Below, in pieces: positions 4,095 to 28,311 of a DNA stretch of 31,390 nt (positions are counted from its first letter, which is position 1; the number at the start of each line of letters is the position of its first letter). This stretch comes from a virus: IMG/VR virus record IMGVR_UViG_3300017991_000299, positions 1-31,390 of that record; one strand, given 5' to 3'. A program made the translations under genes and the position numbers. Under the pieces are notes generated by a model that did no database searches, had not been told where the DNA came from, and saw only the letters and a list, made by a program, of their open reading frames with translations.

Positions 4095-5101
4095 TGTTAA
4101 GAGATAGAGTTATAGATATGTTCAGAAAAGCGCGTGAGGAAATAAATGCGCAAATCGTGGCTGGTACAAGTGTTAGTGATGTATTTGATGATAAAGATTC
4201 GCGTTCGCATATTCTCAAAAGTGTGCAGGATGAGTATGCGGAGCGTGATGCCCATACTATGTTAGAGTGGAGCGCACAAAACCCTATCCAAGCGTGCGCA
4301 TCGGCGCAACACTTTGTGCAACCATATGTACGTAGATGTATGCGGGATGATATCATTCACCTTATACACCACAATGGCATCTTGGGTATCTTGGATAAGC
4401 TAGAAGGGTATTGGGTGCGCAAGTATAATGATATATACCATAACACCGACACCTTGATGCCAGAAATAGTTACGAATTTGCAGAAGGCTGCATACCTGAC
4501 AATGGTAAATTATACTCTCAAAAAATTATTGAGAGCTGTAAGAGATGCCACAGTGGCGCATGTGGGCTATATTACGTACATGGAAACGTGTACGGATATA
4601 GTGGATATGTGTGAACGTATGACTGCGTATAGTGATGATGTTGATGTGTGGGTATCGCGGCAAAGTGGGATCGATAAGTTCCGCATCATCAAATATCCCT
4701 ATGGGTGGAATATTCATTCAGAAGGATTCGATGCCAGGGTTTTGGTTGAGGTAGATGGAATGGCAGAAGTAGTAGTTTCTAGATCCACTTCGGTGTACGA
4801 GTTGAAGCTCTTTGCCGAGAGGTTATGTAGCGCGCAAAAGAGAATTATGTACGAGAATAATATTCTGGGGCATATTCTTCAAGAGCTGGTACTTCGTACA
4901 AAGTGTGAGGAAGGGGAAACTATATACGGTCGTATGGGAGATGAGTATGCGACTGTGAACATAGTATCTTCCAATTCATACTTATTGACGCTGGGCAGTG
5001 ATACGTACATGGTGCGCCGAGAGGGAGAAAGATGGTATTGTGATAAGAAGGTAGATGGTTCTATGATAATCAAACTTGTCAGATGGGTATGTAATAAGTA
5101 A
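4094..5101 (+). CDS. Hypothetical protein
   Basis: 335 residues from ATG 4094, whose A is also the last base of the preceding TGA. GGAGG at 4082-4086 is the SD. A TTG at 4091 in frame is less likely. The first ~200 residues look all-helical (RDRVIDMFRKAREEINAQI; LRAVRDATVAHVGY). The last ~130 look mixed alpha/beta with a TYMVRREGERWYCDKK stretch near the C-terminus. No catalytic motif or membrane segment recognised. The preceding zinc-ribbon gene is probably translationally coupled to it. Confidence 0.75.
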   Translation: MLRDRVIDMFRKAREEINAQIVAGTSVSDVFDDKDSRSHILKSVQDEYAERDAHTMLEWSAQNPIQACASAQHFVQPYVRRCMRDDIIHLIHHNGILGILDKLEGYWVRKYNDIYHNTDTLMPEIVTNLQKAAYLTMVNYTLKKLLRAVRDATVAHVGYITYMETCTDIVDMCERMTAYSDDVDVWVSRQSGIDKFRIIKYPYGWNIHSEGFDARVLVEVDGMAEVVVSRSTSVYELKLFAERLCSAQKRIMYENNILGHILQELVLRTKCEEGETIYGRMGDEYATVNIVSSNSYLLTLGSDTYMVRREGERWYCDKKVDGSMIIKLVRWVCNK

Positions 5102-5109
5102 TGATAATT

Positions 5110-5137
5110 GGGAGTGGGTTAATATTAACCCACTCCC
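5110..5137 (+). promoter_or_regulatory. 28-bp perfect palindrome abutting the SD
   Basis: GGGAGTGGGTTAAT (5110-5123) is followed immediately by its exact reverse complement (5124-5137), and AGGAGG begins at the next base (5138). As RNA it forms a very stable hairpin ending at the SD of the sulfotransferase gene. No T-run follows, so it is not an ordinary terminator. Confidence 0.8.
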
Positions 5138-5148
5138 AGGAGGTATGT

Positions 5149-5763
5149 GTGCTAATAAATGATGAGCAAAAATGGGTATATATCAGCCCACCAAAAACTG
5201 CAAGTTCTTCATTAACTAAATACTTCTCACAGCATGGTGGGGAGGATGCCGATCCAAATGATAGGCATAGCGTTGATATACCTATGGAAGCGAACGCATA
5301 TTACAAGTTTGCTAGTGTACGTAATCCATATGGCAGAGCCGCATCGTTGTGGCGATATTATATTATGCATATATACCGTTGGAAATATAGAAATGAGGTT
5401 GGGTGGTATACCCATATCGCTCATGATGCCAGCATACGGGATGGATTCCCATTTCAAGTATTTATATCGCACATGGTATATAACCATAATGCGTGGTTCC
5501 CATTTTATACCCACTCATTACAAGATTGGTTAGGTGATATAGAACTAGATGCTGTATTGCATATGGAAAACCTCGTCGTAGATATATCAAACTTACCATT
5601 TATAGAAGAAGTGGGTTGTGTACCTATAGCAAATGTGTCCCAGCACCATCAACCATTGAGAGTGAAGTATAATGCTTCTACTTCTCAATTGGTGAAGGAG
5701 TGGGCACGTGATGGGTTCGATAGGTTTGGGTATAGCCGTGATGACTATGGAGGGGAATGGTAG
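5149..5763 (+). CDS. Probable PAPS-dependent sulfotransferase
   Basis: 204 residues from GTG 5149, five bases after AGGAGG. The frame also opens at ATG 5101, but that codon has no SD and would run through the palindrome. PPKTASSSL (residues 14-22) matches the 5'-phosphosulfate-binding loop of sulfotransferases, and FASVRNPYGRAASLWRYY (about 54-70) matches the 3'-phosphate motif with its conserved Arg and Ser. The spacing between the two and the C-terminal FDRFGYS fit the Sulfotransfer_2-like group, at the short end of its size range. It would move sulfate from PAPS to an unknown acceptor (glycan, lipid or tyrosine). No PAPS-making genes are visible, so PAPS would have to come from the host. 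Confidence 0.8.
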   Translation: MLINDEQKWVYISPPKTASSSLTKYFSQHGGEDADPNDRHSVDIPMEANAYYKFASVRNPYGRAASLWRYYIMHIYRWKYRNEVGWYTHIAHDASIRDGFPFQVFISHMVYNHNAWFPFYTHSLQDWLGDIELDAVLHMENLVVDISNLPFIEEVGCVPIANVSQHHQPLRVKYNASTSQLVKEWARDGFDRFGYSRDDYGGEW

Positions 5764-8315: not shown

Positions 8316-8361
8316 AGTACAGAGGCAAGCAATATAATTTATAGTATCTTGCCTCTGTACT
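8316..8361 (+). promoter_or_regulatory. 14-bp-stem hairpin upstream of actin-like gene
   Basis: AGTACAGAGGCAAG (8316-8329) pairs perfectly with 8348-8361 across an 18-base loop. An AT-rich stretch (ATTTATTTA) follows, then AGGAGG. The stem lies between the stop at 8282 and the start at 8382. It could be a weak terminator, a leader hairpin, or a DNA site for the neighbouring partition-type proteins. Confidence 0.7.
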
Positions 8362-8381
8362 ATTTATTTAAGGAGGTTTGT

Positions 8382-9380
8382 ATGAATATTATTGGGATAG
8401 ATAGAGGTTCAGGTTATGTAAAAGTTGTATCAGATGGCTTCATGTATGCTTTCCCCAGTGTGTTGGGGGAGTACTCCAAAGAAGCTACATTTTCGGATAG
8501 TGATAAGAGGATTTCTACAGTGGTGGTAGATGGTAAAGGTTACACTGTAGGTAGTGACGCCATACAGTATTGTAGAATGGCGAATGGCATTTCTCAAAAT
8601 GAGAATACCATAGGCAGTGCTGCAGAGAAGGCTATTATATTGTATGTAATAGGAAAGATGTACTTGGAGCATTTAGTATCAGATAGTGTTCTGATATCTA
8701 CTGGATTACCAGTGGATTGGTTCTGCGCAGAGAATGTACGACGTATGAGAGATAGTTTGTTGGGCACCCATACATTTATGGTGGAAGGTATAGAAATAAC
8801 CATGAATGTGATGGGTGTAGATGTTGGAGTACAGCCCATGGCGGCACTATCTGACTATTCAATCAAAGGTGGTAAGGTTGTTGTGGGTGAAGAAGTGAGG
8901 CAAGGAGTTGTAGTCATTGATCCAGGATGGAATACTATAGATGTAGTCACTATCAAGGATGGTATCCCAATCAAATCGAAATCCAAGTCTCATATAGGTA
9001 TGGGTTGTAAGCAATTGATGATAGATTTACAATCCAGGGTTGCTGGCAGTACAGGCATCACTTATAAATTGCACGAGCTTGATGCTGCAGCCAGGGGGGA
9101 TAAAAGATTATATCACAATGGGATACACTTGGATGTTGCAGATATGTATGAGGATAGTAGAGCCATTTGGGCAAATCAAGTGGTTGCATGGTTAAGTGAG
9201 ATTTGGGACCAGAATGAGATAGGGTCATACATGCTGACATTACTATGCGGTGGTGGGGCGATGCATTGCGTTTCGGAAGTAGAAGAATCGTTTAATGCCC
9301 ATACATCGGGGAGATTTGCTATCGCTTCTGGGTATTACAAAACCAGCACTATGAGGAAAGGTGGTGATAATCATGGCTAA
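8382..9380 (+). CDS. Actin-like ATPase (ParM/Alp family)
   Basis: 332 residues from ATG 8382 behind AAGGAGG; an in-frame TTG at 8349 lies inside the hairpin and is rejected. The actin-fold signature is clear: phosphate-1 loop IIGIDRGSGYVKV (residues 3-15), STGLP near 106, phosphate-2 loop VVVIDPGWNT (D180) and adenosine motif LLCGGGA (290-293 region). The C-terminal FAIASGYYK resembles the ParM C-terminus (A.A.GY.K). Such proteins polymerise on ATP to segregate plasmids or phage DNA, or to position phage replication. Best match is the ParM/StbA/Alp group rather than chaperones of the Hsp70 type, because it is far too short for those. Confidence 0.85.
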   Translation: MNIIGIDRGSGYVKVVSDGFMYAFPSVLGEYSKEATFSDSDKRISTVVVDGKGYTVGSDAIQYCRMANGISQNENTIGSAAEKAIILYVIGKMYLEHLVSDSVLISTGLPVDWFCAENVRRMRDSLLGTHTFMVEGIEITMNVMGVDVGVQPMAALSDYSIKGGKVVVGEEVRQGVVVIDPGWNTIDVVTIKDGIPIKSKSKSHIGMGCKQLMIDLQSRVAGSTGITYKLHELDAAARGDKRLYHNGIHLDVADMYEDSRAIWANQVVAWLSEIWDQNEIGSYMLTLLCGGGAMHCVSEVEESFNAHTSGRFAIASGYYKTSTMRKGGDNHG

Positions 9381-9752: not shown

Positions 9753-10415
9753 ATGGGGCAATCTGGGAAAGATATTATTGTAAGAGTGTATGAGGAATTA
9801 AACCAGTTGGTGTACTTTCTGGCGCATAAATATAAGAATGACCAAGTGGTGGAGTTACATTTTGACGATATAGTGGGGCACTTAAACCTCAAAATGGTTG
9901 AAGTGGTAGGGAGGTATTCAGGAGAAAAGTGTTACGAAGATATAGTTAAATTAGTTAAAATGTCTTTGTACAATGAGGTTAAAACTCTTATGTCTAGATG
10001 CTATGGTACTCATCGTAGTGAAGGTATAGGGGATGTACATTTTGTTATGGGGTACATGAGTGAGGCGACTAGTGAGAAGAATAAGGATGAGGTTTATGCA
10101 GAAACTATATTAGATAGACAAGTAGAAGTGGAGAATGAAGCTATACTATCGGATACAATAACTAGATTTCGTGATAGTTTATCTGGGGTGGATGGTCAAG
10201 TATTCGATGTGTTGTACAATAGCATAACTGCCCCAACCGATTCATTCATTAAGGCTATTGATATAATAGCTTCTAGGAGGAAACGTAATGGGAATTCTCA
10301 CTATCAAATACCTAGAGAATTAGTAATTAGCAGAGTTCTTGGGTATGAGCCACGTGAGGTGAGAAGTAGTATAAACAGAATTAAAAGAAGTTTGATTATG
10401 GAATTAGGAGGTTAA
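9753..10415 (+). CDS. Sigma-70-like RNA polymerase factor
   Basis: 220 residues, ATG 9753 with a GGAG SD. Residues ~8-85 (VYEELNQLVYFLAHKYK, then FDDIVGHLNLKMVEVVGRYS and a helix ending NEVKTLMSRCY) follow the pattern of sigma region 2: an aromatic-rich first helix, a DDI..L.L motif, and an R-rich end. The C-terminal ~35 residues (YEPREVRSSINRIKRSLI) resemble the helix-turn-helix of region 4. It probably redirects host RNA polymerase to phage promoters. It is divergent; a remote homologue acting otherwise cannot be excluded. A second sigma-like gene lies at 28980. Confidence 0.6.
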   Translation: MGQSGKDIIVRVYEELNQLVYFLAHKYKNDQVVELHFDDIVGHLNLKMVEVVGRYSGEKCYEDIVKLVKMSLYNEVKTLMSRCYGTHRSEGIGDVHFVMGYMSEATSEKNKDEVYAETILDRQVEVENEAILSDTITRFRDSLSGVDGQVFDVLYNSITAPTDSFIKAIDIIASRRKRNGNSHYQIPRELVISRVLGYEPREVRSSINRIKRSLIMELGG

Positions 10416-10416
10416 T

Positions 10417-11784
10417 ATGGAAAAGAGTAATGTGATTAAGGTATGTAAATTGATGGGTATGGATCCCATACCGCGTAGAGGCAGTACAAAAACACTATTG
10501 AATGGGTTGCTGGTATACACTCAAGAATACCCAGAAGGTCGTCCTAAGTTAGAGGATTTGGATGATGCTACTGTAGATTTGGTATTGGATGTACTTGAAA
10601 TGATCGATGAAGGTACATATGATAATAGGGAGTTAGGTAATGGTATTACATTAGCCACGCTTCTGTACCCAGCAATGTATGAAGTGGTTGAGTGGGGTAA
10701 AGATGGAGAAGAAGTAGTTTCTGTAGGTGATGAAATATTAGAGAGTATGGGTGTCACTGAAAATACCCCAAAATCAAGCAAGCATCCCATTACGGAAGAT
10801 GATGTAGATTTTGAGAATGACTGCTTCGGGCTATTTTCTCCGTTGGATCCTCAATGTAGAGATTGCGTAGATACTGATGAGTGTAAGGAGGAATTCCTCA
10901 ATAACAAGCCTGATTGCTACGGATCGTTTGATGGCGATTCTGTATGTATAGGAGAAAAGGGGAATAAACCTTGTTTGTATAGAGCTTTATGTATGGTTGA
11001 AAATAAGGAAGATGAGGTAGTTGAGGAAGATGAGGTAGTTGAGGTAGTTGAGGAAGATGAGGTAGTTGAGGAAGATGAGGTAGTTGAGGTAGTTGAGGAA
11101 GATGAGGTAGATGAGGTAGTTGAGGAAGATGAGGTAGTTGAGGAAGATGAGGTAGTTGAGGAAGATGAGGTAGTTGAGGAAGTTGCGCAGAAGGAACTGA
11201 TGAAATTGAGGGCGCAACTAGGCATCAGTAAATGGAATATGTTACTGAGGAGCTTACTGCACTTCGATGAGGGAGATGAGGGGAAAACAAAGTATAGAAA
11301 ATATATTGCCAGCATACCCGAAGGCGAGGATACGATAGCTCTGGTGGCTATCACTAACAAGGGGATATACACTTTATTGCCAGATGGGGTAAAAGATATT
11401 TGGTTCCCTTCTAGTTCTGTGGGATTTAATGTTGTTGCTGGGCAGTTGATGTCTAAGGTAGTTTCAAATGAGTCCATGGTCCAAGAAGATATTCCAGCAT
11501 TACCTAGTAAAGATATGACTAAAAGGGAGATGGAGGACTATATGCTCTCCCCTGATTATAAGAGTAATAAAGCACAAGCGGATGATATGGAAACTTCTGA
11601 GATTGTAGATTTACTATCATCCGAGTATGGTGTTGAGATTGATGCTGACGATGATCGTATACGTCGTATGAGAGCTCTTATGGCATGGAGAAAAGAGCTG
11701 GGTATTAGTAAGTGGAAACCAGAGTTCAGTAGTAAATCGCAGAGAGATGCTTTTGCTAAGGAGCATGGGCATAATAGTTTTTAG
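10417..11784 (+). CDS. Multidomain protein with Cys motifs and acidic repeats
   Basis: 455 residues, ATG 10417 directly behind AGGAGG. Four parts are visible: an N-terminal helical region (1-95); a Cys-rich region (136-192) with two related copies of a CFG/CYG..F...C motif; an acidic low-complexity linker (about 198-256) built from EEDEVV/VVEEDEV units; and a C-terminal region containing LGISKW twice (near residues 268 and 430). The Cys motif resembles short zinc-binding modules found in phage proteins of unknown role. The acidic linker may mimic nucleic acid or bind basic proteins. Followed by a 36-bp palindrome. Function unknown. Confidence 0.75.
   Translation: MEKSNVIKVCKLMGMDPIPRRGSTKTLLNGLLVYTQEYPEGRPKLEDLDDATVDLVLDVLEMIDEGTYDNRELGNGITLATLLYPAMYEVVEWGKDGEEVVSVGDEILESMGVTENTPKSSKHPITEDDVDFENDCFGLFSPLDPQCRDCVDTDECKEEFLNNKPDCYGSFDGDSVCIGEKGNKPCLYRALCMVENKEDEVVEEDEVVEVVEEDEVVEEDEVVEVVEEDEVDEVVEEDEVVEEDEVVEEDEVVEEVAQKELMKLRAQLGISKWNMLLRSLLHFDEGDEGKTKYRKYIASIPEGEDTIALVAITNKGIYTLLPDGVKDIWFPSSSVGFNVVAGQLMSKVVSNESMVQEDIPALPSKDMTKREMEDYMLSPDYKSNKAQADDMETSEIVDLLSSEYGVEIDADDDRIRRMRALMAWRKELGISKWKPEFSSKSQRDAFAKEHGHNSF
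11008..11184 (+). repeat. In-frame tandem repeat encoding acidic linker
   Basis: Units GAAGATGAGGTAGTT and GAGGTAGTT alternate about a dozen times in 9- and 18-base steps, encoding EEDEVVEVV-type runs. One unit has GTAGAT instead of GTAGTT. Such DNA repeats often vary in copy number by slippage; all units keep the frame. Confidence 0.9.
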
Positions 11785-11830: not shown

Positions 11831-11839
11831 GGAGGTATG

Positions 11840-13270
11840 ATGAGTAAACGTACAAAGAGGATCAAGAAAGTAAAGACTGCCAGAGGTGGAAATATAGAAT
11901 ACTTGGATGAGGTTGGTGAGGATCAATATGGTACATACCAAAGAGCACTATTAAGTATGACGCGTGGCGGCAAAGGTAAACCATACAATGTATATATGGA
12001 GCCTTCCCCACATTTGGTGTTAGATACATCCCCCTCCCCAAGAGGTTGGTATAAAGGAAAGAACGAGTCTGATAGAGTGCGCCCACGACCTTGTTACACA
12101 GAAGCATTATTGACCACACCATATGGAGGATTTTGCTCACTTAATTGTGCCCATTGCTATGTGAATGGTGGGACACGGGGATACAGGGCAACAGGTTTGC
12201 CTGCAGCGCATGTAGTGTATCCGGATAAATTGCGGGCACAAATTGCTAAAATAAACGTATCCGGAGCGGGGTACATTACCTCTTTCAGCGAACCTTTCCA
12301 TCAACTAGAACCAAAATACCATGTTACTCGTAGACTGGCACAAGTATTCATTGATGAAGGATTACCTATATTTTACTTGAGTAGAAGCATCCCACCTGAT
12401 TGGGCTATAGATACACTCCAGGAAAATGCATACAGTTATATGCAATGGAGCATTAACACAGGCAATCCTGATCATTATAGAAAAATGAGTCCAGGATCTT
12501 ATGATCTTGATGACGTGTATGAGCGCATACAAGATTTCTCTGAGCAAGGGATATTTGTGAGCATACAAGTGAATCCCATTGTAGCAGGTATAACTAAGTT
12601 AGCAGATATAATGCTTCTTCTAGATAATTTGAAGCAAGCAGGTGCGCACCACTGTATATTCAAATTTGTAGAGCAAGTGGCTAACAATAGAAAATCCTTA
12701 ATGGCGAGAATGGGTAAAAGAGGATTACCAGATGTAGATAAGTTTGATAAGGTATTTAGTCAAGTTATTGGCGGGGTATATACTGTAGCCCAAGATGTTA
12801 GAGTAGAATGGCTTAAAGCTATTTTAGAGCATACTCGTAAATTGGGACTTACTATGAGCACGTGCTATGAGTATTACAATGATGGGCATGCAGGTTCTAA
12901 TTTGGCGCCATGGTTTACCACTTCTGATCAGTGCCATGGGAGAGGTGTACCAGTTTACTACAGACCATCACCAGGAGCACCATTCCAACCAGTTCCAGGA
13001 TGCTATAGGAAAGGTTGTCTATACTGTAGTGATTATGGTACTAGAGCTTGTGGTAACGATAAATTGCTCCATGCTGATGCTATGGAATATAAAGATTTAC
13101 GTGAGACTGTTATACGGGAAGTGGATGATGAATTATGGGCACATGTAGATAGTTGCTTAATGCCCGAGGACGCCAAACAATCTACCAGAAACATTATATT
13201 TTACAGCAATCCTAAAATGCTGACTGATGCAGAAATGTGGGGTTGGGGGGAGGTAGATGAGATATGTTGA
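11840..13270 (+). CDS. Radical-SAM enzyme of DNA hypermodification operon
   Basis: 476 residues from ATG 11840 (spacing 4 from GGAGG); ATG 11837 is possible but only one base from the SD. The radical-SAM cluster motif CSLNCAHC (C99, C103, C106) has the canonical CX3CX2C spacing and is followed by YVNGG. Near the C-terminus, four cysteines (about 388, 393, 396, 404) could hold an auxiliary Fe-S cluster or zinc. The region around the motif recalls spore-photoproduct-lyase-like members. In phages with hypermodified thymidine (M6-type pathway), a radical-SAM enzyme isomerises the amino acid attached to the base. The next gene, a hydroxymethyl-dU kinase-like protein overlapping by 7 bases, supports that role here. 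Confidence 0.8.
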   Translation: MSKRTKRIKKVKTARGGNIEYLDEVGEDQYGTYQRALLSMTRGGKGKPYNVYMEPSPHLVLDTSPSPRGWYKGKNESDRVRPRPCYTEALLTTPYGGFCSLNCAHCYVNGGTRGYRATGLPAAHVVYPDKLRAQIAKINVSGAGYITSFSEPFHQLEPKYHVTRRLAQVFIDEGLPIFYLSRSIPPDWAIDTLQENAYSYMQWSINTGNPDHYRKMSPGSYDLDDVYERIQDFSEQGIFVSIQVNPIVAGITKLADIMLLLDNLKQAGAHHCIFKFVEQVANNRKSLMARMGKRGLPDVDKFDKVFSQVIGGVYTVAQDVRVEWLKAILEHTRKLGLTMSTCYEYYNDGHAGSNLAPWFTTSDQCHGRGVPVYYRPSPGAPFQPVPGCYRKGCLYCSDYGTRACGNDKLLHADAMEYKDLRETVIREVDDELWAHVDSCLMPEDAKQSTRNIIFYSNPKMLTDAEMWGWGEVDEIC

Positions 13271-13938
13271 TACTTTTGTATGGACCATTCGCTTGCGGTA
13301 AAACGTATTTTACTGATAATTCATTATTGCCGCATTTGAAAAATACCAATCTACCTGTCACAGTAGTCAACGCAGATCACACCAGAGAGAAGTATTGGGA
13401 GAATGGGGAGTTGGTAGAAGTACGAGAAAAGCGTTGGAATAGTAAGATAGAAAACAAAACTGCTATGTGGCATAGATGTATGGATGATACCAGTAGATAT
13501 TATGTCGTAGAATCCGGACGCCCTGATGGTGAGATACACTGCGCACCATATTTCAAGAAGATAGGGGGAGGATTATACGTAGTGTACCTATCCTGTTTCT
13601 GGAGAAGTATGAAGGATTGGTTAGTGCAGCGGTGCGAGGATAGAGGGAAGGAGTTCAATAAAGAGTATTGGAATAGGGATACTCTCACCGACCATGATAT
13701 AGTTAGATTCCAACGGCAAATAACTAATAACCTCATACCCAATAATGTACCCCATCGTATATTTATGCTGGGTAAAGATAGGGAAGGCTATGATGCCGTG
13801 GAGCAGTTTCTATTCTATCTATTTAATGTACCGCCATATGTGTGGTATAATAGTGTATGGAAACATAGTAATACTACACAATTAGATAAATTGAGTGATG
13901 AGGTATTGCCTAACATTAGAAGGAGGAGGAGTACATGA
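13264..13938 (+). CDS. 5-hydroxymethyl-dU DNA kinase-like P-loop protein
   Basis: 224 residues, ATG 13264 behind GGGGAGG, overlapping the radical-SAM gene. Walker A is GPFACGKT (residues 7-14). An Asp (VNADHTREKYW, about 38) and an Arg-rich lid (WLVQRCEDRGK, about 118-128) fit a small nucleotide/DNA kinase fold. In hypermodified phages a kinase of this kind phosphorylates 5-hydroxymethyl-dU in DNA to create the leaving group for amino-acid attachment. Assignment rests on the P-loop plus its position immediately before the transferase gene (ATGA overlap). From sequence alone it could be another P-loop kinase such as a polynucleotide kinase. Confidence 0.75.
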   Translation: MLILLYGPFACGKTYFTDNSLLPHLKNTNLPVTVVNADHTREKYWENGELVEVREKRWNSKIENKTAMWHRCMDDTSRYYVVESGRPDGEIHCAPYFKKIGGGLYVVYLSCFWRSMKDWLVQRCEDRGKEFNKEYWNRDTLTDHDIVRFQRQITNNLIPNNVPHRIFMLGKDREGYDAVEQFLFYLFNVPPYVWYNSVWKHSNTTQLDKLSDEVLPNIRRRRST

Positions 13939-14819
13939 ATTTATATAATTTTGATGGGGCTATAGATAGTGATTATACGTGGCAAGACTTTGGCAGGGAT
14001 CTAATCGTTTCTGAGGATTTGGATCCGATATACGTCATGCTATGGGAATCTTCTGTAGATCATCGTACTATGTGTAAGTGGTTATTGAGCTACTGGTGTT
14101 ATTATCACGCTGGAGTAAGTTCCATGGCGGCTGAGAAGAGTGATGCTGATTTTTACAACTTCTTACGATCCGGACTAGGGGGGGATAATAAGTTCCCGAG
14201 AGGGATGGAACGTCGTCATTTCTGGGGTGGCATGGCTGCCAAAGCCATAGATGATATAGAAAGCAGAGGTTCTCCCCAAGCAGTAGTGGATTGGATAGCC
14301 AGTGGTAAGACGTTCAATGAGGTTTATAAACGCGTTAATTCTATACACGGTTTTGGACCTTGGATAGGTTGGAAGGTATCTGATATGGTAGAGACGTGTC
14401 TAGCTGAGCCTGTGGATTTTGAGGATGCACCTCCAGGCACTATACTTGGTATATATGCCGATCCCGTGAAAGGTGCGGCATTGATAAGGTATGGGGATTG
14501 GCGTTCCGATATAACTAAGGAAGAAGTTGGGGACATCGTAGATGCCATATGTAGTGAATTCAAGGATTTGTCTGCACCTCCGAGATATAATCGGAGGGTT
14601 AATATACAAGAAGCAGAAACTGTATTGTGTAAATTCAAGGCTCACCATAAAGGGTTTTACCCCATGGGCAATGATACATATCATGTAAGAGAGGCACTCA
14701 GTGGTTGGGGGGATCTGGCGCAACAAATGCTTCTGACGTGCCCCAATGTAAAACCAGGACATAAAGGTTATGATAGTATGGAGTACTCCGATAGTCCAGC
14801 ATCGTGCGCATTCAAATAG
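13935..14819 (+). CDS. Amino-acid:DNA transferase-like protein (alpha-glutamyl/putrescinyl thymine pyrophosphorylase family)
   Basis: 294 residues, ATG 13935 behind AGGAGGAGG, overlapping the kinase by ATGA. The sequence follows the family that replaces the pyrophosphate on 5-(PP-O-methyl)-dU with an amine: WLLSYWCYYHAGVSS (about 54-68), ERRHFWGG (about 95), and HGFGPWIGWKVSDMVE (about 138-153), the last resembling the helix-hairpin-helix of DNA glycosylases, to which the family has been related. C-terminal CKFKAHHKGFYPMGND is also typical in style. It would attach an amino acid to activated hydroxymethyl-dU in DNA; which amino acid cannot be read from sequence. Its last 50 bases overlap the PLP gene. 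Confidence 0.8.
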   Translation: MNLYNFDGAIDSDYTWQDFGRDLIVSEDLDPIYVMLWESSVDHRTMCKWLLSYWCYYHAGVSSMAAEKSDADFYNFLRSGLGGDNKFPRGMERRHFWGGMAAKAIDDIESRGSPQAVVDWIASGKTFNEVYKRVNSIHGFGPWIGWKVSDMVETCLAEPVDFEDAPPGTILGIYADPVKGAALIRYGDWRSDITKEEVGDIVDAICSEFKDLSAPPRYNRRVNIQEAETVLCKFKAHHKGFYPMGNDTYHVREALSGWGDLAQQMLLTCPNVKPGHKGYDSMEYSDSPASCAFK

Positions 14820-15588
14820 TAGTATCATAGGCGTGAAGAGGGATGACTTAGCAGGCATCCCTCCCATGCCTCCATTCTCAAAATGTAGAGGTATGGTTCT
14901 TGCAGCTGAGGGCGCGGTATCTAAAGGAGCTAAGTCGCTTGGCACTGTAATTACGTATGCTTCTTATAGAGGTACAGCATTAGCAGCATGGTGCTTGGAT
15001 AATAATATACCTTGTTTTATATTTTATGGTAAGTACAAACATGAAGATATATCGCCAGTGACGCTGGATTCAGTATTAGAGTTGGGAGTTGACGTCATAC
15101 CAGTTCCTGCTGGGAGATACGGGGTAATGGTAGGGCGTGCTAAGAAATTGATGCCAAGAGGTGGGATAGTATTATCTCATGGTAATACTGATAGGTTTAT
15201 GGTAGAATCTCAGTATATAGAGGCATCTTTAACCATAGCTTCGTACCCAAAATATCGTACAGGTAGTTGGGTATTCCCAACTGCCACAGGGTTATCAGCT
15301 GCTGGAGCAATAAAAGCTATTGTAGATCTGGGGTTGGATATTCAGCCTATATTATACTTGGTGGGAGATTCTAAGGTCGATAAAGTACTTAATTTGATAG
15401 TAAAGCATTCAGGTATAGATAAGATGCGCTTAAAATACATTAGGCACAGTCAAAATTTAGATGAGCCAATGTTGTGCGATGTACCATTCCCATGCAATAT
15501 ATACTATGATACCAAAGCATGGGAATATGTTTGCGATTCATATAATGAATTACATAAGCCTGTACTATTTTGGAATGCTGGAGCATAA
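14770..15588 (+). CDS. Fold-type-II PLP enzyme, hypermodification operon
   Basis: 272 residues, ATG 14770 with AAAGG upstream, inside the 3' end of the transferase gene. VKRDDL then PPFSKCRG (K38 the likely Schiff-base lysine) match the N-terminal pattern of tryptophan-synthase-beta/ACC-deaminase/D-cysteine-desulfhydrase-like enzymes, where the loop reads NK.RK. A Gly/Thr/Ser-rich phosphate-binding stretch (WVFPTATGLSAAGAIKA, about 176-192) and a conserved end (VPFPCNIYYDTKAWEY...KPVLFWNAG) follow. PLP enzymes of such operons decarboxylate or otherwise trim the base-linked amino acid. It is paralogous to the enzyme at 25836 across its length, including the C-terminal block, which speaks for a specialised phage family. 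Confidence 0.8.
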   Translation: MIVWSTPIVQHRAHSNSSIIGVKRDDLAGIPPMPPFSKCRGMVLAAEGAVSKGAKSLGTVITYASYRGTALAAWCLDNNIPCFIFYGKYKHEDISPVTLDSVLELGVDVIPVPAGRYGVMVGRAKKLMPRGGIVLSHGNTDRFMVESQYIEASLTIASYPKYRTGSWVFPTATGLSAAGAIKAIVDLGLDIQPILYLVGDSKVDKVLNLIVKHSGIDKMRLKYIRHSQNLDEPMLCDVPFPCNIYYDTKAWEYVCDSYNELHKPVLFWNAGA

Positions 15589-15590
15589 AT

Positions 15591-16328
15591 ATGGAAAAAA
15601 GAATAATATATAAAACTAAGTCTAAAACCCAGTACTATCTGAGGGCAGGTACTGGAGTGTTACCTTTAGAAGAAGTTGAATACAATAAAATTGAAACAGA
15701 AAGGTTATGTAGGGATGGTTGCGTAAATTATAATAGAGGTGGTGGGTGTCCGCCATTTAGCCCAGATTTTGATTCATACCTGAGACGTTTCCCTAATCAC
15801 AAATTAACATTATTCTGGGTAGCAGTGCCGATAGTTAGTATACCTCCCACTATATGCTCTCAAAAAAGTTGGAAAATCCCAGCAGTATTCTCTAATCGTA
15901 TGAGTGTTACTGCAGTAGATTACGTATACAAGCATATACGTTCACTAGAAGATGCTAAAGCTATGTTGTGGACGGGGCATTGTGACGAATGTAAGAAGTG
16001 TATATTCAAATTGCGTGATGGTAATGGACTAGTTGATGGAGTTAAACCGCGTTGCCGTCACCCAGAGTTGCGTAGATTTTCTTTAGAATCTACAGGTATA
16101 TGGGTCAACAAGGCTATGGAAAGTGTAGGTAGTTATATAGATTGGTGGTGGCGCGATGGTAATGGGGTTAATCCTAATGGGAAACTAGTTCCCAGAGATA
16201 CCAAAGCTATATGTGGAGTAATAGCCGATAGATCCATGGAATCTGATATTTGGGAGTTTTGGCGCATACATAAACAGTTTACTATAATATCAAGTAAAAG
16301 CGTAACACGGAGGAGGTTATATGAGTAG
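15591..16328 (+). CDS. DUF2284-like cysteine (metal-binding) protein
   Basis: 245 residues from ATG 15591, with GGAG 7 bases upstream; an in-frame TTG at 15570 lies inside the previous gene and is rejected. C40, C44 and C53 in CRDGCVNYNRGGGCPPFSPD match the C...C...CPP pattern of DUF2284 predicted metal-binding proteins, and a second group (CDECKKC about 132-138, then CRHPE near 155) is also in register with that family. It probably holds one or two Fe-S clusters or zinc. Sitting between the PLP and DUF1599-like genes (8-base overlap with the latter), it may supply electrons or act on the modified base. Its exact role is unknown. Confidence 0.7.
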   Translation: MEKRIIYKTKSKTQYYLRAGTGVLPLEEVEYNKIETERLCRDGCVNYNRGGGCPPFSPDFDSYLRRFPNHKLTLFWVAVPIVSIPPTICSQKSWKIPAVFSNRMSVTAVDYVYKHIRSLEDAKAMLWTGHCDECKKCIFKLRDGNGLVDGVKPRCRHPELRRFSLESTGIWVNKAMESVGSYIDWWWRDGNGVNPNGKLVPRDTKAICGVIADRSMESDIWEFWRIHKQFTIISSKSVTRRRLYE

Positions 16329-16734
16329 TATATGGGAATTGAACTATGATGACGTATTGGAGAGAATAAATGGTGCTATGGTATCTGATGAGGATTCTCC
16401 TTATGGAGTGACGCTTACTCATGTAGTAGATGTGATGTTAAAGTTGCAAAAAGCCAAAGAAGAAGGATATGGATACTCATGGTGTAAGAGAGGTATGCCA
16501 GGCATATGGGCAAATACTAGTCGTAAGTATGACAGGTTAGATAATATGTTGGCATCTCATTTCAACGATGGTGTTCCTTTGGATAGGGGGGAGAATATAG
16601 TATCTACTATAGCCGATATGGCTATATATGGGATAATGTGGGTGGCGTGGTTTGCCAAATATCATCCCGAGTTATACGATGCTTGGGAAGATGAGATTAA
16701 TGAATTCTTAGGGAGTCAGGATGATTCGTCGTAG
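16321..16734 (+). CDS. DUF1599 (Nmad1)/MazG-like helical protein
   Basis: 137 residues, ATG 16321 behind GGAGGAGG. SRKYDRLDNML (about residues 60-70), an Arg/Glu pair (DRGENIVSTIADMAIYG, about 88-104) and a C-terminal acidic helix follow the K..RL...E.I.D...D...Y pattern of DUF1599, a MazG-like all-helical domain repeatedly found beside phage base-modification genes. It may bind or hydrolyse a modified nucleotide. Its last 14 bases overlap the polymerase gene. The family call is by pattern only. Confidence 0.6.
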   Translation: MSSIWELNYDDVLERINGAMVSDEDSPYGVTLTHVVDVMLKLQKAKEEGYGYSWCKRGMPGIWANTSRKYDRLDNMLASHFNDGVPLDRGENIVSTIADMAIYGIMWVAWFAKYHPELYDAWEDEINEFLGSQDDSS

Positions 16735-19333
16735 GGCTAGAACTGAATCTCACGCTTGTGAGGATTGTAAATTACATACCACCAGAACTAATGTAGTTAT
16801 GGGTGATGGTAATGTTAATAAACCCATCATTGTGTTCGTGGGAGAAGCTCCGGGAGAAAATGAGGATCTTCAAGGAAAACCTTTTGTTGGTAAGAGTGGT
16901 TCATATCTAAGACAAATGGTTAGTGCCTTTGGATTGACTGATTATGCATATTTCACCAATGTAGTGAAATGTCGCCCTCCCAATAATAAGAAACCTAACA
17001 AATCTTCCATATCTTCTTGCTTACCAAAACTACTAGCTGAGTTGAGGTATATGAATCCGGATATATTAGTACTATTGGGAGCCACTGCCATCAAATCAGT
17101 TGCTACAACGGCTTCTGGTGCAGTGGCACAGTACTCTAACCAATTTATATCTACAGAGTATTGTGATAACACCTTTTTAATGTATCACCCATCATACATT
17201 ATACGTACTGGCTCGTTTGATATTTTTGAAGATGGGTTTAAGTTATTGGTTCTGAAGATGTGGGAGTTAGGTATTGAGGTATCGCCTATAGTAGAAGTAG
17301 ATGGTAAATTAAATAAGCCAGTGCCTATGCCTGAAAATATACATATCGTAGATACTGTGGATAAGCTACATGAGCTATGCGATATGTTGAAGGACTATGA
17401 CGGTATTGTCGCTTGGGATACCGAGAGTAATAATAACAAACCATTCAGAGGGGATAAAAAACGTAAATTATTGTATATATCCATGTGTTGGGATCCCAAA
17501 GAAGCATGGGTTATACCTATACACCATGGCGATAGATGCTTGGGCGATACTGCTATAAATGAATTGAAGCCATGGTTTGAAGATTCTAACAAACGTAAGA
17601 TATGCCATAATGCCAAATACGATGCACTAGTTATGTTGGTGCAAGGTATAAATGTAAAAGGTATAGTTAGAGATACTATGGTTATGTCTCATCTGGGTGA
17701 TGTATATCGCCCAGAAGGACATGGTTTGAAAGGTTTGGCCAGCAGTAAATTATCTTGGGTCAATTATGATGGCGATATGATGGAATATCAGCGTCATTAT
17801 AAGGAATGTAAACCTAAATCTACTGATGAAAGTGTTGGGTACCAGCATTTTCCTCCTGAATTGATTCAAGAGTATGCTGGGCTAGATGCTGCGGCTACAT
17901 TGCAATTATATTATATACTTCTAGAAGAATTAACCGATAAGCAAGTAATATTATTGGATGAGTTACTGATGCCAGCATCGGAATTGTTGACATATATGGA
18001 ATACAGAGGAACAGCAGTAGATTTGGATAGAGTTGATGAGTATATACATGCATACGAAGATACTTTAGAAAGAGTGATTGAAGATTTAGCTAATCTTCCT
18101 ACTGTTGGAAAATATCTATCTGATGTAGGCAAAGAAACATTTAATCCCAACAGTTATAAACAAATGGGCGATATTATATATAAATATTTTGACTTTGAGG
18201 TTACAGTGCGTACTGATAGCGGTAATCCTTCCACCAATAGCGATGATGTGTTAGCACACATATTAGATGGAAGTATGAAATCCAAAAATCCTGGCATATG
18301 TAATGAGCCTATAGAGTTCGTCCGTTTGGCTATGTTGTACCGTAAGGCAACAAAAATGCTGGGCACATATTTAAGATCCTCATCCAGAGGGGGGAAGAGT
18401 TTAGATGACGATAATAAGATAAGGAGTACGTTTAATCTACACGGAACAGTATCTGGTAGATTATCTTCTTCAGATCCCAATTTACAGAATATACCTGCGC
18501 TGGAAGCCATTGATGATCCTGAGCATATTATGAGAACCCATCCCATCAAGAATATATATTTCTCTCGTTGGATGGAAGAGGGCATGATTATGGAAGTGGA
18601 CTTCTCTGCTATGGAGTTGCGGGTTATGAGTTCGTTAGCAGGTTGCAAAGAAATGATAGATGCCTTTTCTCATGGTAGAGATATACATAGATTAGTTGCA
18701 GGGCAAGTACACCATAAAGATCCTGATGATATCACTAAAGAAGAAAGATACAGTGGGAAATGGGCAAACTGGACATTACTATATGGTGGTGGAGTAGGTA
18801 CATTAGTTAGTTTGTATGGGTTGAGCTATGAAGAAGCCGAGAAGGTAGTTGATGGGTATTATCACATATTCCCAGAAGTTAAATGGTGGCAAGATAGTTC
18901 TGAGAAAAGTATTGTTAATAATAGATATGTAGAATCTATATGGGGAAGAAGACAATACTTAGACAGGTTATTTAAGAGAGCGGAAGGGAACGATTCCTAT
19001 AGAGCATCCATAGTGCGGAGCGCAATAAATGCTCAAATTCAGGGACCAGCTAGTGACGTATTGTTAGCTGCAGGAATAATAGTACACGATCTATTAGAGC
19101 AAGAAGGGTACACTGCGTATATAGTAGATGTAGTGCACGACTCTTTAATTATAGATGTCATAGATGATCATGTACGACCAGTAGCTATATTAGTTAAAGA
19201 CGTTATGGAAAATATCGTACAGTGGGGTAAAATGTATTTCCCTAGATTAGATTGGGATTGGTTGACATGCCCATTAGAAGCCACTCCTGAGGTTGGTAGG
19301 CACTGGGGAGAGAAAAAGGAGTTAAAACTGTGA
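16721..19333 (+). CDS. Uracil-DNA glycosylase / family A DNA polymerase fusion
   Basis: 870 residues. Residues ~10-190 are a family-4 uracil-DNA glycosylase: GEAPGENEDLQGKPFVG (from 41), NVVKCRPP, LLGATA and MYHPSY. Cysteines C13, C16, C84 and C100 have nearly the spacing of the family's [4Fe-4S] site. Then comes a 3'-5' exonuclease with WDTE (D233/E235), HNAKYD (D301) and YAGLDAA (D389). The polymerase domain shows SGRLSSSDPNLQNIP, motif A VDFSAMELR (D627), motif B R676-K680-W684-Y688 and motif C VVHDS (H806, D807, S808). It is therefore a replicative proofreading polymerase. A glycosylase-like N-terminus also exists, to my knowledge, in SPO1-type hydroxymethyluracil phages. Odd points are Trp where Phe/Tyr is usual in motif B and Ser where Glu is usual in motif C. 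GGGAG precedes the ATG. Confidence 0.95.
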   Translation: MIRRRARTESHACEDCKLHTTRTNVVMGDGNVNKPIIVFVGEAPGENEDLQGKPFVGKSGSYLRQMVSAFGLTDYAYFTNVVKCRPPNNKKPNKSSISSCLPKLLAELRYMNPDILVLLGATAIKSVATTASGAVAQYSNQFISTEYCDNTFLMYHPSYIIRTGSFDIFEDGFKLLVLKMWELGIEVSPIVEVDGKLNKPVPMPENIHIVDTVDKLHELCDMLKDYDGIVAWDTESNNNKPFRGDKKRKLLYISMCWDPKEAWVIPIHHGDRCLGDTAINELKPWFEDSNKRKICHNAKYDALVMLVQGINVKGIVRDTMVMSHLGDVYRPEGHGLKGLASSKLSWVNYDGDMMEYQRHYKECKPKSTDESVGYQHFPPELIQEYAGLDAAATLQLYYILLEELTDKQVILLDELLMPASELLTYMEYRGTAVDLDRVDEYIHAYEDTLERVIEDLANLPTVGKYLSDVGKETFNPNSYKQMGDIIYKYFDFEVTVRTDSGNPSTNSDDVLAHILDGSMKSKNPGICNEPIEFVRLAMLYRKATKMLGTYLRSSSRGGKSLDDDNKIRSTFNLHGTVSGRLSSSDPNLQNIPALEAIDDPEHIMRTHPIKNIYFSRWMEEGMIMEVDFSAMELRVMSSLAGCKEMIDAFSHGRDIHRLVAGQVHHKDPDDITKEERYSGKWANWTLLYGGGVGTLVSLYGLSYEEAEKVVDGYYHIFPEVKWWQDSSEKSIVNNRYVESIWGRRQYLDRLFKRAEGNDSYRASIVRSAINAQIQGPASDVLLAAGIIVHDLLEQEGYTAYIVDVVHDSLIIDVIDDHVRPVAILVKDVMENIVQWGKMYFPRLDWDWLTCPLEATPEVGRHWGEKKELKL

Positions 19334-25071: not shown

Positions 25072-25836
25072 ATGTACATTAAAGTAGGTGGTTTCAATAT
25101 AGAGATAGAAGATTACTTAGATCTGCAAGAACCTAAGAAGGGCATAGATGCACATAATGCCCAAATTTTGAAATCGAGACATCAAAGAGATTCCAAGATA
25201 AATACGTGGGGCAACATAACGTTGTGCGAGAAAGTATTGGGGGAGAGTAAATGTAGTGTAGTGGAGTATTTTGGAGGATTAGGTATTACTACAGCAGCAT
25301 TACGAGATAAGTTTGATATAGAAATGCACACAGTAGTAGAAATACATCCGCCACTATGTAGACATTTGAGGGATAATTTTCCTGATATCAATGTTATAGA
25401 GGGGGATGCTCGTAAAGTAGCAGGAAAATTGGGGTATCATTCGTTGATGTTGTGCGACTTTCCTGCCTTCACTATTTTAAGATTAGATGATGTAGATGAT
25501 ATATTTTCTGCAGAGTTATTGAGAGACGATAGTCCGGATTATGTAGTATTCACAGACTCTGCATGGAGATGGTTGAGCTTAAACCTCAAGAATTATCAGA
25601 ATAGAGGATTACCAATATATACTAAACCAGATTATATAAAAGTACTATCTAATATGTTATATGATAGATATGGTTATAGTATTAAATATGCTCATACAGG
25701 CATAGTATGCGCGTATTGCCTTATGGTACGTGGGAAAGTTGAGGTCCAGATAAACAACATTGCAGGGGATGATGGGTCATACAATGTACATGGTAAAGAA
25801 TATGTATCATTTTGTATGGAAGATGGGGAGAAGTAG
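25072..25836 (+). CDS. Class I SAM-methyltransferase-like protein (copy A)
   Basis: 254 residues, ATG 25072 behind AGGAGG. SVVEYFGGLGITTAAL (62-77) is a SAM-binding motif I; VVEIHPPLCRHLRDNFP (about 88-104) gives motif II; GDAR gives motif III; LMLCDFPAF (about 123-131) stands where DPPY/NPPY (motif IV) is usual. The C-terminal part (DYIKVLSNMLYDRYGYSIKYA) is closely similar to that of the gene at 26680, so the two are paralogues flanking a PLP enzyme. The target is unknown: a DNA base, the amine on a modified base, or a protein. The altered motif IV could mean a non-methylating role. Confidence 0.7.
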   Translation: MYIKVGGFNIEIEDYLDLQEPKKGIDAHNAQILKSRHQRDSKINTWGNITLCEKVLGESKCSVVEYFGGLGITTAALRDKFDIEMHTVVEIHPPLCRHLRDNFPDINVIEGDARKVAGKLGYHSLMLCDFPAFTILRLDDVDDIFSAELLRDDSPDYVVFTDSAWRWLSLNLKNYQNRGLPIYTKPDYIKVLSNMLYDRYGYSIKYAHTGIVCAYCLMVRGKVEVQINNIAGDDGSYNVHGKEYVSFCMEDGEK

Positions 25837-26675
25837 TGGTGAGTGGTATAATATGCGATAATACTCCGTGGGAGGAGTATAATGGGATACACGTTAAACG
25901 GGAGGATCTTAGTTGCCCATATCCTGGACCGCAATTCAGTAAGATAAGAGGTGTATACAGAACACTGATGGGTATCAAAGAGGATAATGATATACCAGTA
26001 CCTATTGGTGTGTTAGATACACTCCATTCTAAAGCAGGATGGGGAGTAGCATATTTATGCAACGAACTAGATCTACCTTGTATAAATTTCTATCCCGTCT
26101 ATAAAGCAGATTTATTGGGAGATATGCGCAATTTGAGACAAGGGCAACGCATGTCTAAAAAGTTAGGTGCATTTTTAATACCTATGAGAGTATGGAAGAG
26201 TGCAGCTCTATACTACAGAGCTAGAAATAAATTGGAGGAAATGTCTCAAGGTATGGGGGTAATGTTGCCCAATGCTCTTAAGATTCCGGAGACTGTGCAA
26301 GCTACTGCAGAAGAAACTGCTAAATATACTCCCCCAGAATTGCGTCGCGGTACATGGGTGATATCTATATCCAGCGGTACTATTGCTGCGGGAGTTATCC
26401 AGGGTATGAAAAAGTACCATGAGGATATACGATTCGTGGTACATATGGGATATAGTAGGTCTGAGAAAAGTACTATTAAATACATACATAATATGGCAGG
26501 ATATAAGCCTGCGAACATCTCAGTAATAGACGAGGGTTACAGTTATAAGGATGGCGTAGATCTACAAGTACCATTTCCATGCAATAGGTACTATGATGCT
26601 AAGGCATGGAAATGGTTAGTAGATAATGTAGATAGACTACATAAACCTGTAATATTTTGGAACATAGGAGATTAA
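25836..26675 (+). CDS. Fold-type-II PLP enzyme, second copy
   Basis: 279 residues. GTG 25836 shares a base with the preceding TAG (TAGTG) and has GGGGAG (25824-25829) 6 bases upstream; GTG 25839 is equally plausible, and the TTG at 25812 is inside the SD region. VKREDL followed by GPQFSKIRG (K36) gives the PLP lysine, and ISISSGTIAAGVIQG (about 180) the phosphate-binding loop. The C-terminal VPFPCNRYYDAKAWKWL...KPVIFWNIG almost repeats the end of the enzyme at 14770. Compared with that copy it has an extra helical insertion near residues 120-165. It is flanked by two methyltransferase-like paralogues, and the three form a tight unit. Confidence 0.8.
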   Translation: MVSGIICDNTPWEEYNGIHVKREDLSCPYPGPQFSKIRGVYRTLMGIKEDNDIPVPIGVLDTLHSKAGWGVAYLCNELDLPCINFYPVYKADLLGDMRNLRQGQRMSKKLGAFLIPMRVWKSAALYYRARNKLEEMSQGMGVMLPNALKIPETVQATAEETAKYTPPELRRGTWVISISSGTIAAGVIQGMKKYHEDIRFVVHMGYSRSEKSTIKYIHNMAGYKPANISVIDEGYSYKDGVDLQVPFPCNRYYDAKAWKWLVDNVDRLHKPVIFWNIGD

Positions 26676-26679
26676 CGGT

Positions 26680-27441
26680 ATGAGAAAATTATTAGTGGAT
26701 AATAAGTACGAACTGCCTATACCCATTTACTTAGATCTAGATGCTAAGAAAACTGGGTCGCGTCCAGCATATGCTAGTATACTTAAACCCAGAGTTATGG
26801 CATCGGTAGCGAAGAATGCGTGGTGTACTGTAGAAGCGTATAAATATGTGATACATAACTATGAAGATTTGAATGGGGCAAATATCATAGAATATTTCGG
26901 AGGTATGGGATGCGTAACGGCTAAATTGTATCATGAATGCAGTACGCATTCACATATAGTGGTAGATATAGACGAGTCATTAGCCAGATATTTAAGAGAA
27001 ACATTTCCGGGCATAGAGGTATTGTGTGCAAATACTTTCGATTTGGTAGGGACTATAGATGATATAGATCTAGCTATTTGGGATTCTCCAAATAATACTC
27101 TTAAGAGGTTGGTAGAGAAAGGAGAGTTCTATTACGCTTTCAAAAAAGATTTAGTTAGAGATACTGCACCAACTTATGCTATAATTACAGATACTGGGTG
27201 GGGTTGGATCCATCTACATGTCGAGAAGTACAAAGCATTAGGGTTGCCTGTATGCGGTAGAGACAATTATCTAGAAGTATTATCAGACACGCTATACGAT
27301 ATGTATGGGTATAGTATTAGATTTGCGGCAACTCATAAAGAGGCTGCACATTTTGTAGTCACTAAGGGAAAACCAAAACCGTTTGATAAAGTAAGAGCGG
27401 AGGATTATGGAGGTAAAGATTTTGTAAGGTTATTAGAATAA
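26680..27441 (+). CDS. Class I SAM-methyltransferase-like protein (copy B)
   Basis: 253 residues, ATG 26680 with AGGAG 10 bases upstream. NIIEYFGGMGCVTAKL (68-83) is SAM motif I, IVVDIDESLARYLRETFPG (about 91-109) motif II, and AIWDSPNN (about 133-140) a recognisable motif IV, nearer to a working methyltransferase than copy A. DNYLEVLSDTLYDMYGYSIRFA aligns with copy A (25072) over the C-terminal part. It sits between the second PLP enzyme and the terminase ATPase gene. Likely target: DNA or the modified base, by context only. Confidence 0.7.
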   Translation: MRKLLVDNKYELPIPIYLDLDAKKTGSRPAYASILKPRVMASVAKNAWCTVEAYKYVIHNYEDLNGANIIEYFGGMGCVTAKLYHECSTHSHIVVDIDESLARYLRETFPGIEVLCANTFDLVGTIDDIDLAIWDSPNNTLKRLVEKGEFYYAFKKDLVRDTAPTYAIITDTGWGWIHLHVEKYKALGLPVCGRDNYLEVLSDTLYDMYGYSIRFAATHKEAAHFVVTKGKPKPFDKVRAEDYGGKDFVRLLE

Positions 27442-27444
27442 TAT

Positions 27445-28311
27445 ATGTCAGCAGTCATAGAAACAGTAGATGAGTGGACATTAAATATTATATCGGATAC
27501 TAGGGATGGCTTCCATAAATTAGAACGATATGGGAGTGATCCCATATCGTTTTTGTATGATTATATACCTGGCCTGAGACTAGCTCCATATCAAGAAGAA
27601 ATATTATCTAACATCCCTTCTCACCCTAGACAAGCAGTGCGTGGACCTCATGGATTAGGTAAAACCACTGTAAATGCACTATCTGTAATATGGTTCATAC
27701 ACACACAAAACCCAGATACAAAAGTTCCAACTACTGCTTCAGTATGGAGACAATTACTAGATTTTTTGTGGCCAGAAATAAATAAATGGGTGCGCAAGTT
27801 AAATTATGAGAAGATGGGAGTTACTCCATCTGATATAACCAAAATGCGGATGAATTTCTATGGGGCATCCGCATTTGCTATTACTTCCAAAGATCCTCAA
27901 TTGATAGAAGGAGCACACGCGGCAAAACTATTGTATATATTAGACGAAGCCAAAGCCATTCCTGACGATATATGGGATGCTGTAGAAGGAGCGTTTTCTT
28001 CAGGGACATGCTATCAATTAGCAGCATCTACTCCAGGTGTAAATCAAGGTAGATTTTTCGATATACATGATGGAAAACCTGGTTATGAGGATTGGCTGGT
28101 TCGTCATGTGACATTAGATGAAGCTATTGCAGCTGGTAGAGTTAGTAAGAAGTGGGCTTCCCAACGAGCCAAGCAATGGGGGAAGGATAGTGCTCTATAT
28201 CAAAATAGGGTATTGGGTGAGTTTGCTACAGATCAATCTGATGGGGTCGTATCACTAAGTAGTGTAGAAGAAGCAGTTCGTAGATGGTATGACAGGATGG
28301 ACAGCGCATGA
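27445..28311 (+). CDS. Terminase large subunit, ATPase part (split gene)
   Basis: 288 residues, ATG 27445 with only a weak AAGG upstream. LAPYQEEILSNI (about 48-59), Walker A RGPHGLGKTT (G67-T74), Walker B LLYILDEAKAIPDD (D167, E168) and a coupling region near AASTPGVNQGRFFD (about 192-205) are those of phage packaging ATPases. The protein ends at VEEAVRRWYDRMDSA, the point where single-gene terminases pass to the nuclease domain. The nuclease follows as a separate gene overlapping by ATGA. A terminator-like hairpin lies inside the 5' part (27524-27551). Together they cut and package concatemeric DNA. Confidence 0.92.
   Translation: MSAVIETVDEWTLNIISDTRDGFHKLERYGSDPISFLYDYIPGLRLAPYQEEILSNIPSHPRQAVRGPHGLGKTTVNALSVIWFIHTQNPDTKVPTTASVWRQLLDFLWPEINKWVRKLNYEKMGVTPSDITKMRMNFYGASAFAITSKDPQLIEGAHAAKLLYILDEAKAIPDDIWDAVEGAFSSGTCYQLAASTPGVNQGRFFDIHDGKPGYEDWLVRHVTLDEAIAAGRVSKKWASQRAKQWGKDSALYQNRVLGEFATDQSDGVVSLSSVEEAVRRWYDRMDSA
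27524..27551 (+). terminator. Terminator-like hairpin inside terminase gene
   Basis: AACGATATGGGA (27524-27535) pairs perfectly with TCCCATATCGTT (27540-27551) over a GTGA loop, a GNRA-type tetraloop in RNA, and TTTG follows. The 12-bp stem and short U run resemble an intrinsic terminator, yet it lies in the coding sequence about 80 bases after the start. It may be an attenuator or a codon-level coincidence. Confidence 0.45.

Follow-up and report, generated by a model that had tools for sequence, protein, structure and literature searches.

Some phages decorate the thymines of their DNA with amino-acid-derived groups and thereby resist restriction enzymes. The known thymidine-hypermodifying phages start this chemistry with a hydroxymethylase or, as predicted, with a Tet/JBP oxygenase; in phage M6, glycine is transferred, a radical S-adenosylmethionine (SAM) enzyme rearranges the adduct and a pyridoxal phosphate (PLP) enzyme decarboxylates it. 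Here we analyse a related locus in the IMG/VR virus record IMGVR_UViG_3300017991_000299, a linear genome fragment of 31,390 bases that was analysed over its whole length and is called the window below. Phage M6 DNA contains 5-(2-aminoethyl)-deoxyuridine (5-NedU), and 5-hydroxymethyl-deoxyuridine (5-hmdU) is the proposed common intermediate, which is phosphorylated by a DNA kinase (PMC6449724). In phage YuA, the genes are ordered as amino acid:DNA transferase (ADDT, gp10), PLP enzyme (gp11), radical SAM enzyme (gp12), 5-hmdU DNA kinase of family PF18748 (gp13), kinase helical domain protein of family PF18723 (HEL, gp14), Nmad5 (gp15) and hydroxymethylase (gp17), and M6-like cassettes list the same thymidine-modification families (PMC9476957). 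We consider it likely, judging from gene content and family relationships, that the window encodes a post-replicative DNA hypermodification, most likely acting on thymine, in which a predicted metal-binding DUF2284 protein would stand in for the helical domain as partner of the DNA kinase.

Operon genes and their M6/YuA-type relatives

Six genes on the + strand fill positions 11837-16734 as a compact operon, in the order radical SAM enzyme, P-loop kinase, ADDT, PLP enzyme, DUF2284 protein and DUF1599/Nmad1-like protein (Table 1). Successive genes overlap by 7, 4 and 50 nt, are then separated by 2 nt and overlap again by 8 nt, while the sixth overlaps the downstream polymerase gene by 14 nt; a Shine-Dalgarno-like sequence precedes most of them. 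A first-pass annotation, made from the letters alone, had proposed a six-gene thymidine-hypermodification operon at this place, and both its coordinates and its CX3CX2C, P-loop and PLP-lysine motifs (CSLNCAHC, GPFACGKT and FSKCRG) proved accurate.

The radical SAM protein matches phrog_9252 at 2.5e-94, is 39-40% identical to its counterparts in YuA, Pam3 and RHph_I65 and 67% identical to that of the relative G012, and retains the CX3CX2C motif together with 105 of the 109 columns invariant in six other aligned members. The ADDT scores 69 bits against PF18724 (cut-off 26), matches phrog_6364 at 2.3e-63, is homologous to solved structures (PDB 25qc, 2e-47; 8z2m, 4.7e-44, with 8z2m/8z2n described as 'glycinyltransferase') and keeps 37 of the 38 columns invariant in other aligned members. 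For the radical SAM, ADDT and DUF2284 proteins, the Pfam matches all exceed the curated cut-offs. Sequence comparison places the radical SAM enzyme and the ADDT in the M6/YuA thymidine-hypermodification families, as had been predicted, and the 13935 product does not fall in an unrelated family. Among deposited phages, matches to the window radical SAM, ADDT and PLP proteins come from the M6/YuA group, Bordetella siphophages, Pam3 and Rhizobium phages, and no relatives of the ADDT were found in a scan of bacterial and archaeal genomes. Inteins occur in the radical SAM gene of two other loci (L127:10993-13500, - strand, and L034:2427-4244), exactly before the third Cys of CX3CX2C (exteins GCKY^CYVN and NCAH^CYIN), and L037:4689-5123, which begins a second radical SAM protein, also has an intein-like insert in this motif.

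Dozens of independent phage contigs have the core genes of the module together and in a conserved order, which excludes chance adjacency. Phages often encode radical SAM, PLP and P-loop proteins, and the operon might in principle be a set of unrelated auxiliary metabolic genes that are neighbours by accident; the specific ADDT, phrog_9252 and phrog_7093 families, however, and this conserved synteny already contradict such an origin, which we regard as very improbable.

The window carries two PLP enzymes. The operon copy, as had been claimed, is one: it retains the lysine of FSKCRG (K38, FSKxRG), which aligns with the invariant lysine of M6-type PLP enzymes. It nevertheless keeps only part of what eight M6-type enzymes have in common: of their 67 invariant columns 34 are altered, DTxHSKAGW and PNALK among them, and these changes suggest that its substrate or reaction has probably changed. 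It forms a very long branch in the tree; its placement beside L022 is likely a long-branch effect and was not used. The first-pass annotation included this copy and missed a second PLP gene outside the operon, together with two genes for methyltransferase-like (MTL) proteins (25072-27441). The second PLP enzyme is 44% identical to YuA gp11 and 52% to the G012 enzyme, and groups with the G012 and G020 enzymes in the tree (support 97/97). On sequence grounds, it is the M6-type orthologue of the window, and the operon copy is a distant paralogue. The two MTL copies flank the orthologue's gene, and because in 11 of the 13 cases the distance from an MTL gene to a PLP gene is at most 75 nt, we consider MTL very probably a pathway component. 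Foldseek matches suggest a class I SAM-methyltransferase fold for copy 2, on a weak model (pLDDT 58.7) that is too weak to name a substrate. In deposited phages, tblastn gave no MTL match, and a profile search found it in Pam3 only.

The second kinase and the DUF2284 protein

The central idea of the first-pass annotation is right, but its kinase call is wrong. The 13264 product, which it had taken for the hydroxymethyl-deoxyuridine kinase, is a different P-loop kinase (kinase B). Neither kinase B nor any other window protein matches PF18748, although the same search scores above the cut-off in YuA and nine other of the searched records; this family is also called HMUDK below. The Pfam search alone gave kinase B only AAA_33, at 0.083. 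Its closest relative, G012_18271 (30% identity), lies just upstream of a separate, genuine PF18748 kinase (9.2e-22), and the members of its family (in G012, G013, G020, L061, L071, L073 and L123) mostly stand directly beside a PF18748-type kinase. With the missing PF18748 match, this neighbourhood led us to reject kinase B as the hydroxymethyl-deoxyuridine kinase. It is no unrelated protein either: hhalign aligns the kinase B and HMUDK profiles at 97.5% (7e-12), and we therefore assign it, by profile, as a remote relative of PF18748 and not the same enzyme. The AlphaFold model (pLDDT 73.9) matches nucleotide kinases and places it in the P-loop kinase fold, with the 5-hmdU DNA kinase of phiW-14 at rank 23 among viral models; a single-sequence scan of viral contigs returned no match. 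In the window, kinase B may be taking over from the PF18748 kinase, or the PF18748 gene may lie beyond the fragment.

The DUF2284 call of the first-pass annotation is borne out by the Pfam match and by seven cysteines that are invariant across four phage proteins. Among all phage loci studied, DUF2284 is confined to the window, G012, L034 and G020. Its gene overlaps the PF18748-type kinase gene in G012 and directly abuts it in L034, and in G020 a single 519-aa open frame comprises a PF18748-type kinase (1.3e-29) and DUF2284 (3.8e-56), with kinase B and Nmad1 as its flanking genes. No locus contains both DUF2284 and HEL, and DUF2284 occupies the slot of HEL in M6-like operons. Because of the G020 fusion and the restriction of DUF2284 to the HEL-less clade, we propose that it is probably a domain with a metal or iron-sulfur centre, which partners the DNA kinase instead of the helical domain. 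The fusion thus ties an uncharacterised family, for which no function was found in the literature searched, to a DNA kinase. A hidden relationship of DUF2284 to the helical domain, to the thymidylate synthase (TS)-type hydroxymethylase or to MTL was considered and rejected, with no similarity found. A single-sequence scan of viral contigs gave no match, and the sole match in the phage collection, MT837887 (L005, labelled 'Bacteriophage sp.'), was discarded; this contig carries MnmE and other bacterial genes and looks cellular.

The sixth gene had been called DUF1599-like, a probable assignment made through its G012 homologue. The protein itself has no direct Pfam match to PF07659 and is linked to it by an iterative profile and by a G020 homologue from the same neighbourhood (29% identity over 114 aa, 2e-14). 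Both proteins whose role the first-pass annotation had left unclear now have a context, DUF2284 through the kinase and the sixth product as a putative nucleotide-pool enzyme.

The entry step in the ADDT clade

Comparison with M6-type phages had led the first-pass annotation to an extended M6-like set. The radical SAM, ADDT and PLP families are indeed shared, but the PF18748 kinase, PF18723 and PF00303 are all missing from the window, and the absence of the hydroxymethylase and the helical domain from the lineage had escaped it. The TS-type hydroxymethylase of deoxyuridine monophosphate (PF00303) and HEL, both present in M6-like relatives, were not found in the window (G000), G012, G015 or G020. 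Neither was the Tet_JBP oxygenase (PF12851), which the same search finds in five other TS-less ADDT phages. ThyX was not found in the window or in G012-G014 (G020 was outside that search), and Pfam scans of the G012 proteins contain no hydroxylase among the families listed (25 of 49 in one scan). In the ADDT tree, the window falls in a supported 14-member clade (99/97) whose examined loci lack both TS and the helical protein. A potential oxidiser of thymine in DNA, Tet/JBP has been reported beside ADDT in phage Tonitrus (PMC11955845). It occurs in four of the 14, in one sub-clade; neither route was found in the other ten, window included, several of which are short contigs. The similar sizes of G012 (77,500 bases) and G020 (77,754 bases) suggest that these are near-complete genomes. 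About a dozen genes of the glycosyltransferase, sugar-nucleotide, deacetylase, methyltransferase and SPASM radical SAM kinds form a run in G012 (L024:6935-17447); a SPASM-type radical SAM gene close to recA is found again in G020, L006 and L035, and two DPPY-type DNA methyltransferase genes lie beside the ADDT in G020 (L127:14632-16643, - strand).

These data bear on whether the window simply belongs to an ordinary M6/YuA system, with PF18748 kinase, HEL and TS in the unsequenced part of the genome, in which case kinase B, DUF2284 and the additional genes for PLP and MTL proteins would be accessories. The window is only a fragment, 56 of 88 kinase-bearing loci have both TS and HEL, and G013 combines kinase B and MTL with both. 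However, TS and HEL are missing from the nearest relatives, G015 and the large G012 and G020 contigs, and from the examined loci of the whole ADDT clade, and DUF2284 stands where M6-like operons have HEL, so that we consider this explanation unlikely. Still less likely, in our view, is that the same enzymes modify another base or hydroxylated substrate, for example a cytosine-derived one. A source of 5-hmdU was not found in the clade, the window has extra methyltransferase-like and PLP enzymes, and in other phage pathways amino acids are joined to modified cytosine, by unrelated enzymes (PMC12783734). The ADDT and radical SAM enzyme nevertheless keep nearly all residues invariant in M6-type enzymes, G012, G020 and L034 have a member of the 5-hmdU kinase family, and the sister sub-clade has Tet/JBP, like the published ADDT phage (PMC11955845).

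Thymine hypermodification with DUF2284 as kinase partner is the reading we prefer, and several points weigh against it. PF18748 has no match in the 31-kb fragment; no hydroxymethyl source was found in the window or the larger relatives searched, so that the entry step is missing and thymine as the base is not proven; the kinase-DUF2284 fusion is known from a single gene in one assembled contig; and the DUF2284 gene of the window adjoins the PLP gene and not the kinase. It is tempting to speculate, though we hold it doubtful, that the sub-clade of the window uses a third base-making route, with neither TS-type hydroxymethylase nor Tet/JBP, in which the metal-binding DUF2284 oxidises or activates thymine in DNA and passes the base to the kinase, its fusion partner in G020.

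In the pathway we propose, a P-loop kinase would phosphorylate the hydroxymethyl group of a 5-hmdU-type base in phage DNA, and the transferase would put the amine of an amino acid in the place of the phosphate. Rearrangement of this adduct by the radical SAM enzyme would follow, and the PLP enzymes would tailor the side chain by decarboxylation or elimination, probably with the MTL proteins. Nmad1 would act on the nucleotide pool, and DUF2284 would fill the role that the helical domain has in M6-type phages, as a metal-binding partner of the DNA kinase. The pathway would thereby gain a methyltransferase-like family and a second kinase. As the clade keeps kinase, transferase, radical SAM and PLP enzymes but neither known entry, it points to an entry enzyme or a substrate that is not yet known, and yields a short list of candidate genes. 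If confirmed, this would widen phage DNA chemistry and provide new DNA-modifying enzymes.

Genomic setting and comparison with described systems

Directly after the operon lies a fusion of uracil-DNA glycosylase (UDG) and DNA polymerase A, on which TIGR00758 scores above its cut-off. The fusion recurs in G012, G020, L006 and L034, and G012 and G020 each have an additional separate short UDG-like gene. Directly upstream of the module, two proteins (9753-10415 and 10417-11784) are conserved in G012 and have position-based counterparts in L034 and G020; the relatives of the second appear to be rich in Cys and to have a SAP-like stretch, and the copy in the window includes an acidic region of VVEEDE repeats. 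Elsewhere, the window encodes a sulfotransferase-like protein (5101-5763), an actin-like protein of ParM/MreB type (8349-9380, ALP_N 8.6e-16), a terminase large subunit that is seemingly split (27445-28311 and 28308-28979, with a 4-nt overlap, covering phrog_2 positions 264-469 and 480-590) and a group 1 glycosyltransferase (29695-30795).

Table 1. Genes of the operon and related features of the window
Feature	Coordinates	Strand	Evidence or remark
Radical SAM enzyme, M6/YuA type (YuA gp12 family; annotated 'DNA repair photolyase')	11837..13270	+	Radical_SAM 9.5e-12
Second P-loop kinase (kinase B), not the PF18748 5-hmdU DNA kinase	13264..13938	+	Walker A GPFACGKT
ADDT, aGPT-Pplase2 type	13935..14819	+	PF18724 5.8e-19
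Diverged second PLP enzyme (fold type II)	14770..15588	+	phrog_7093 8.9e-23
DUF2284 predicted metal-binding protein	15591..16328	+	PF10050 4.2e-16
DUF1599/Nmad1-like small protein	16321..16734	+	Homologue G012_21056 matches PF07659 at 1.8e-7
Family-4 UDG fused to DNA polymerase A	16721..19333	+	Pfam: UDG 3.4e-28, DNA_pol_A 4.3e-71
MTL copy 1	25072..25836	+	Class I SAM-methyltransferase-like motif EYFGGLG; 34% to copy 2
M6-type PLP orthologue	25812..26675	+	phrog_7093 2.7e-65; start probably GTG at about 25839
MTL copy 2	26680..27441	+	Starts 5 nt after the PLP gene; Foldseek: class I methyltransferases

The window resembles M6/YuA, with their 5-NedU pathway, in having ADDT, PLP and radical SAM orthologues upstream of a DNA polymerase gene. 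It differs in that the PF18748 kinase, HMUDK_hel, the TS-type hydroxymethylase and Nmad5 were not found in it. Its additions are the UDG-polymerase fusion, two MTL genes, kinase B, DUF2284, the Nmad1-like protein and one more PLP enzyme. Because defining parts of the M6 system were looked for and not found, we do not class the window as an M6-type system, although it would work like one. With the Tet/JBP-route ADDT phages (such as Rhodococcus phage Tonitrus and here G008, G019, G021 and G022), it shares the TS-less and HEL-less ADDT clade and a kinase without helical domain, whereas their oxygenase was not found in the window, G012, G015 or G020. Pseudanabaena phage Pam3 has ADDT, PLP and radical SAM enzymes, a homologue of MTL and a gene that matches the Nmad1-like protein over a short stretch; in contrast to the window, it also has TS, HMUDK and HMUDK_hel, and its MTL lies 2.4 kb from the PLP gene. 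Finally, the phage DUF2284 proteins share the Cys pattern and the Pfam match of cellular DUF2284 (PF10050) proteins, but differ from them in that the phage gene lies beside, or is fused to, a DNA-kinase gene.

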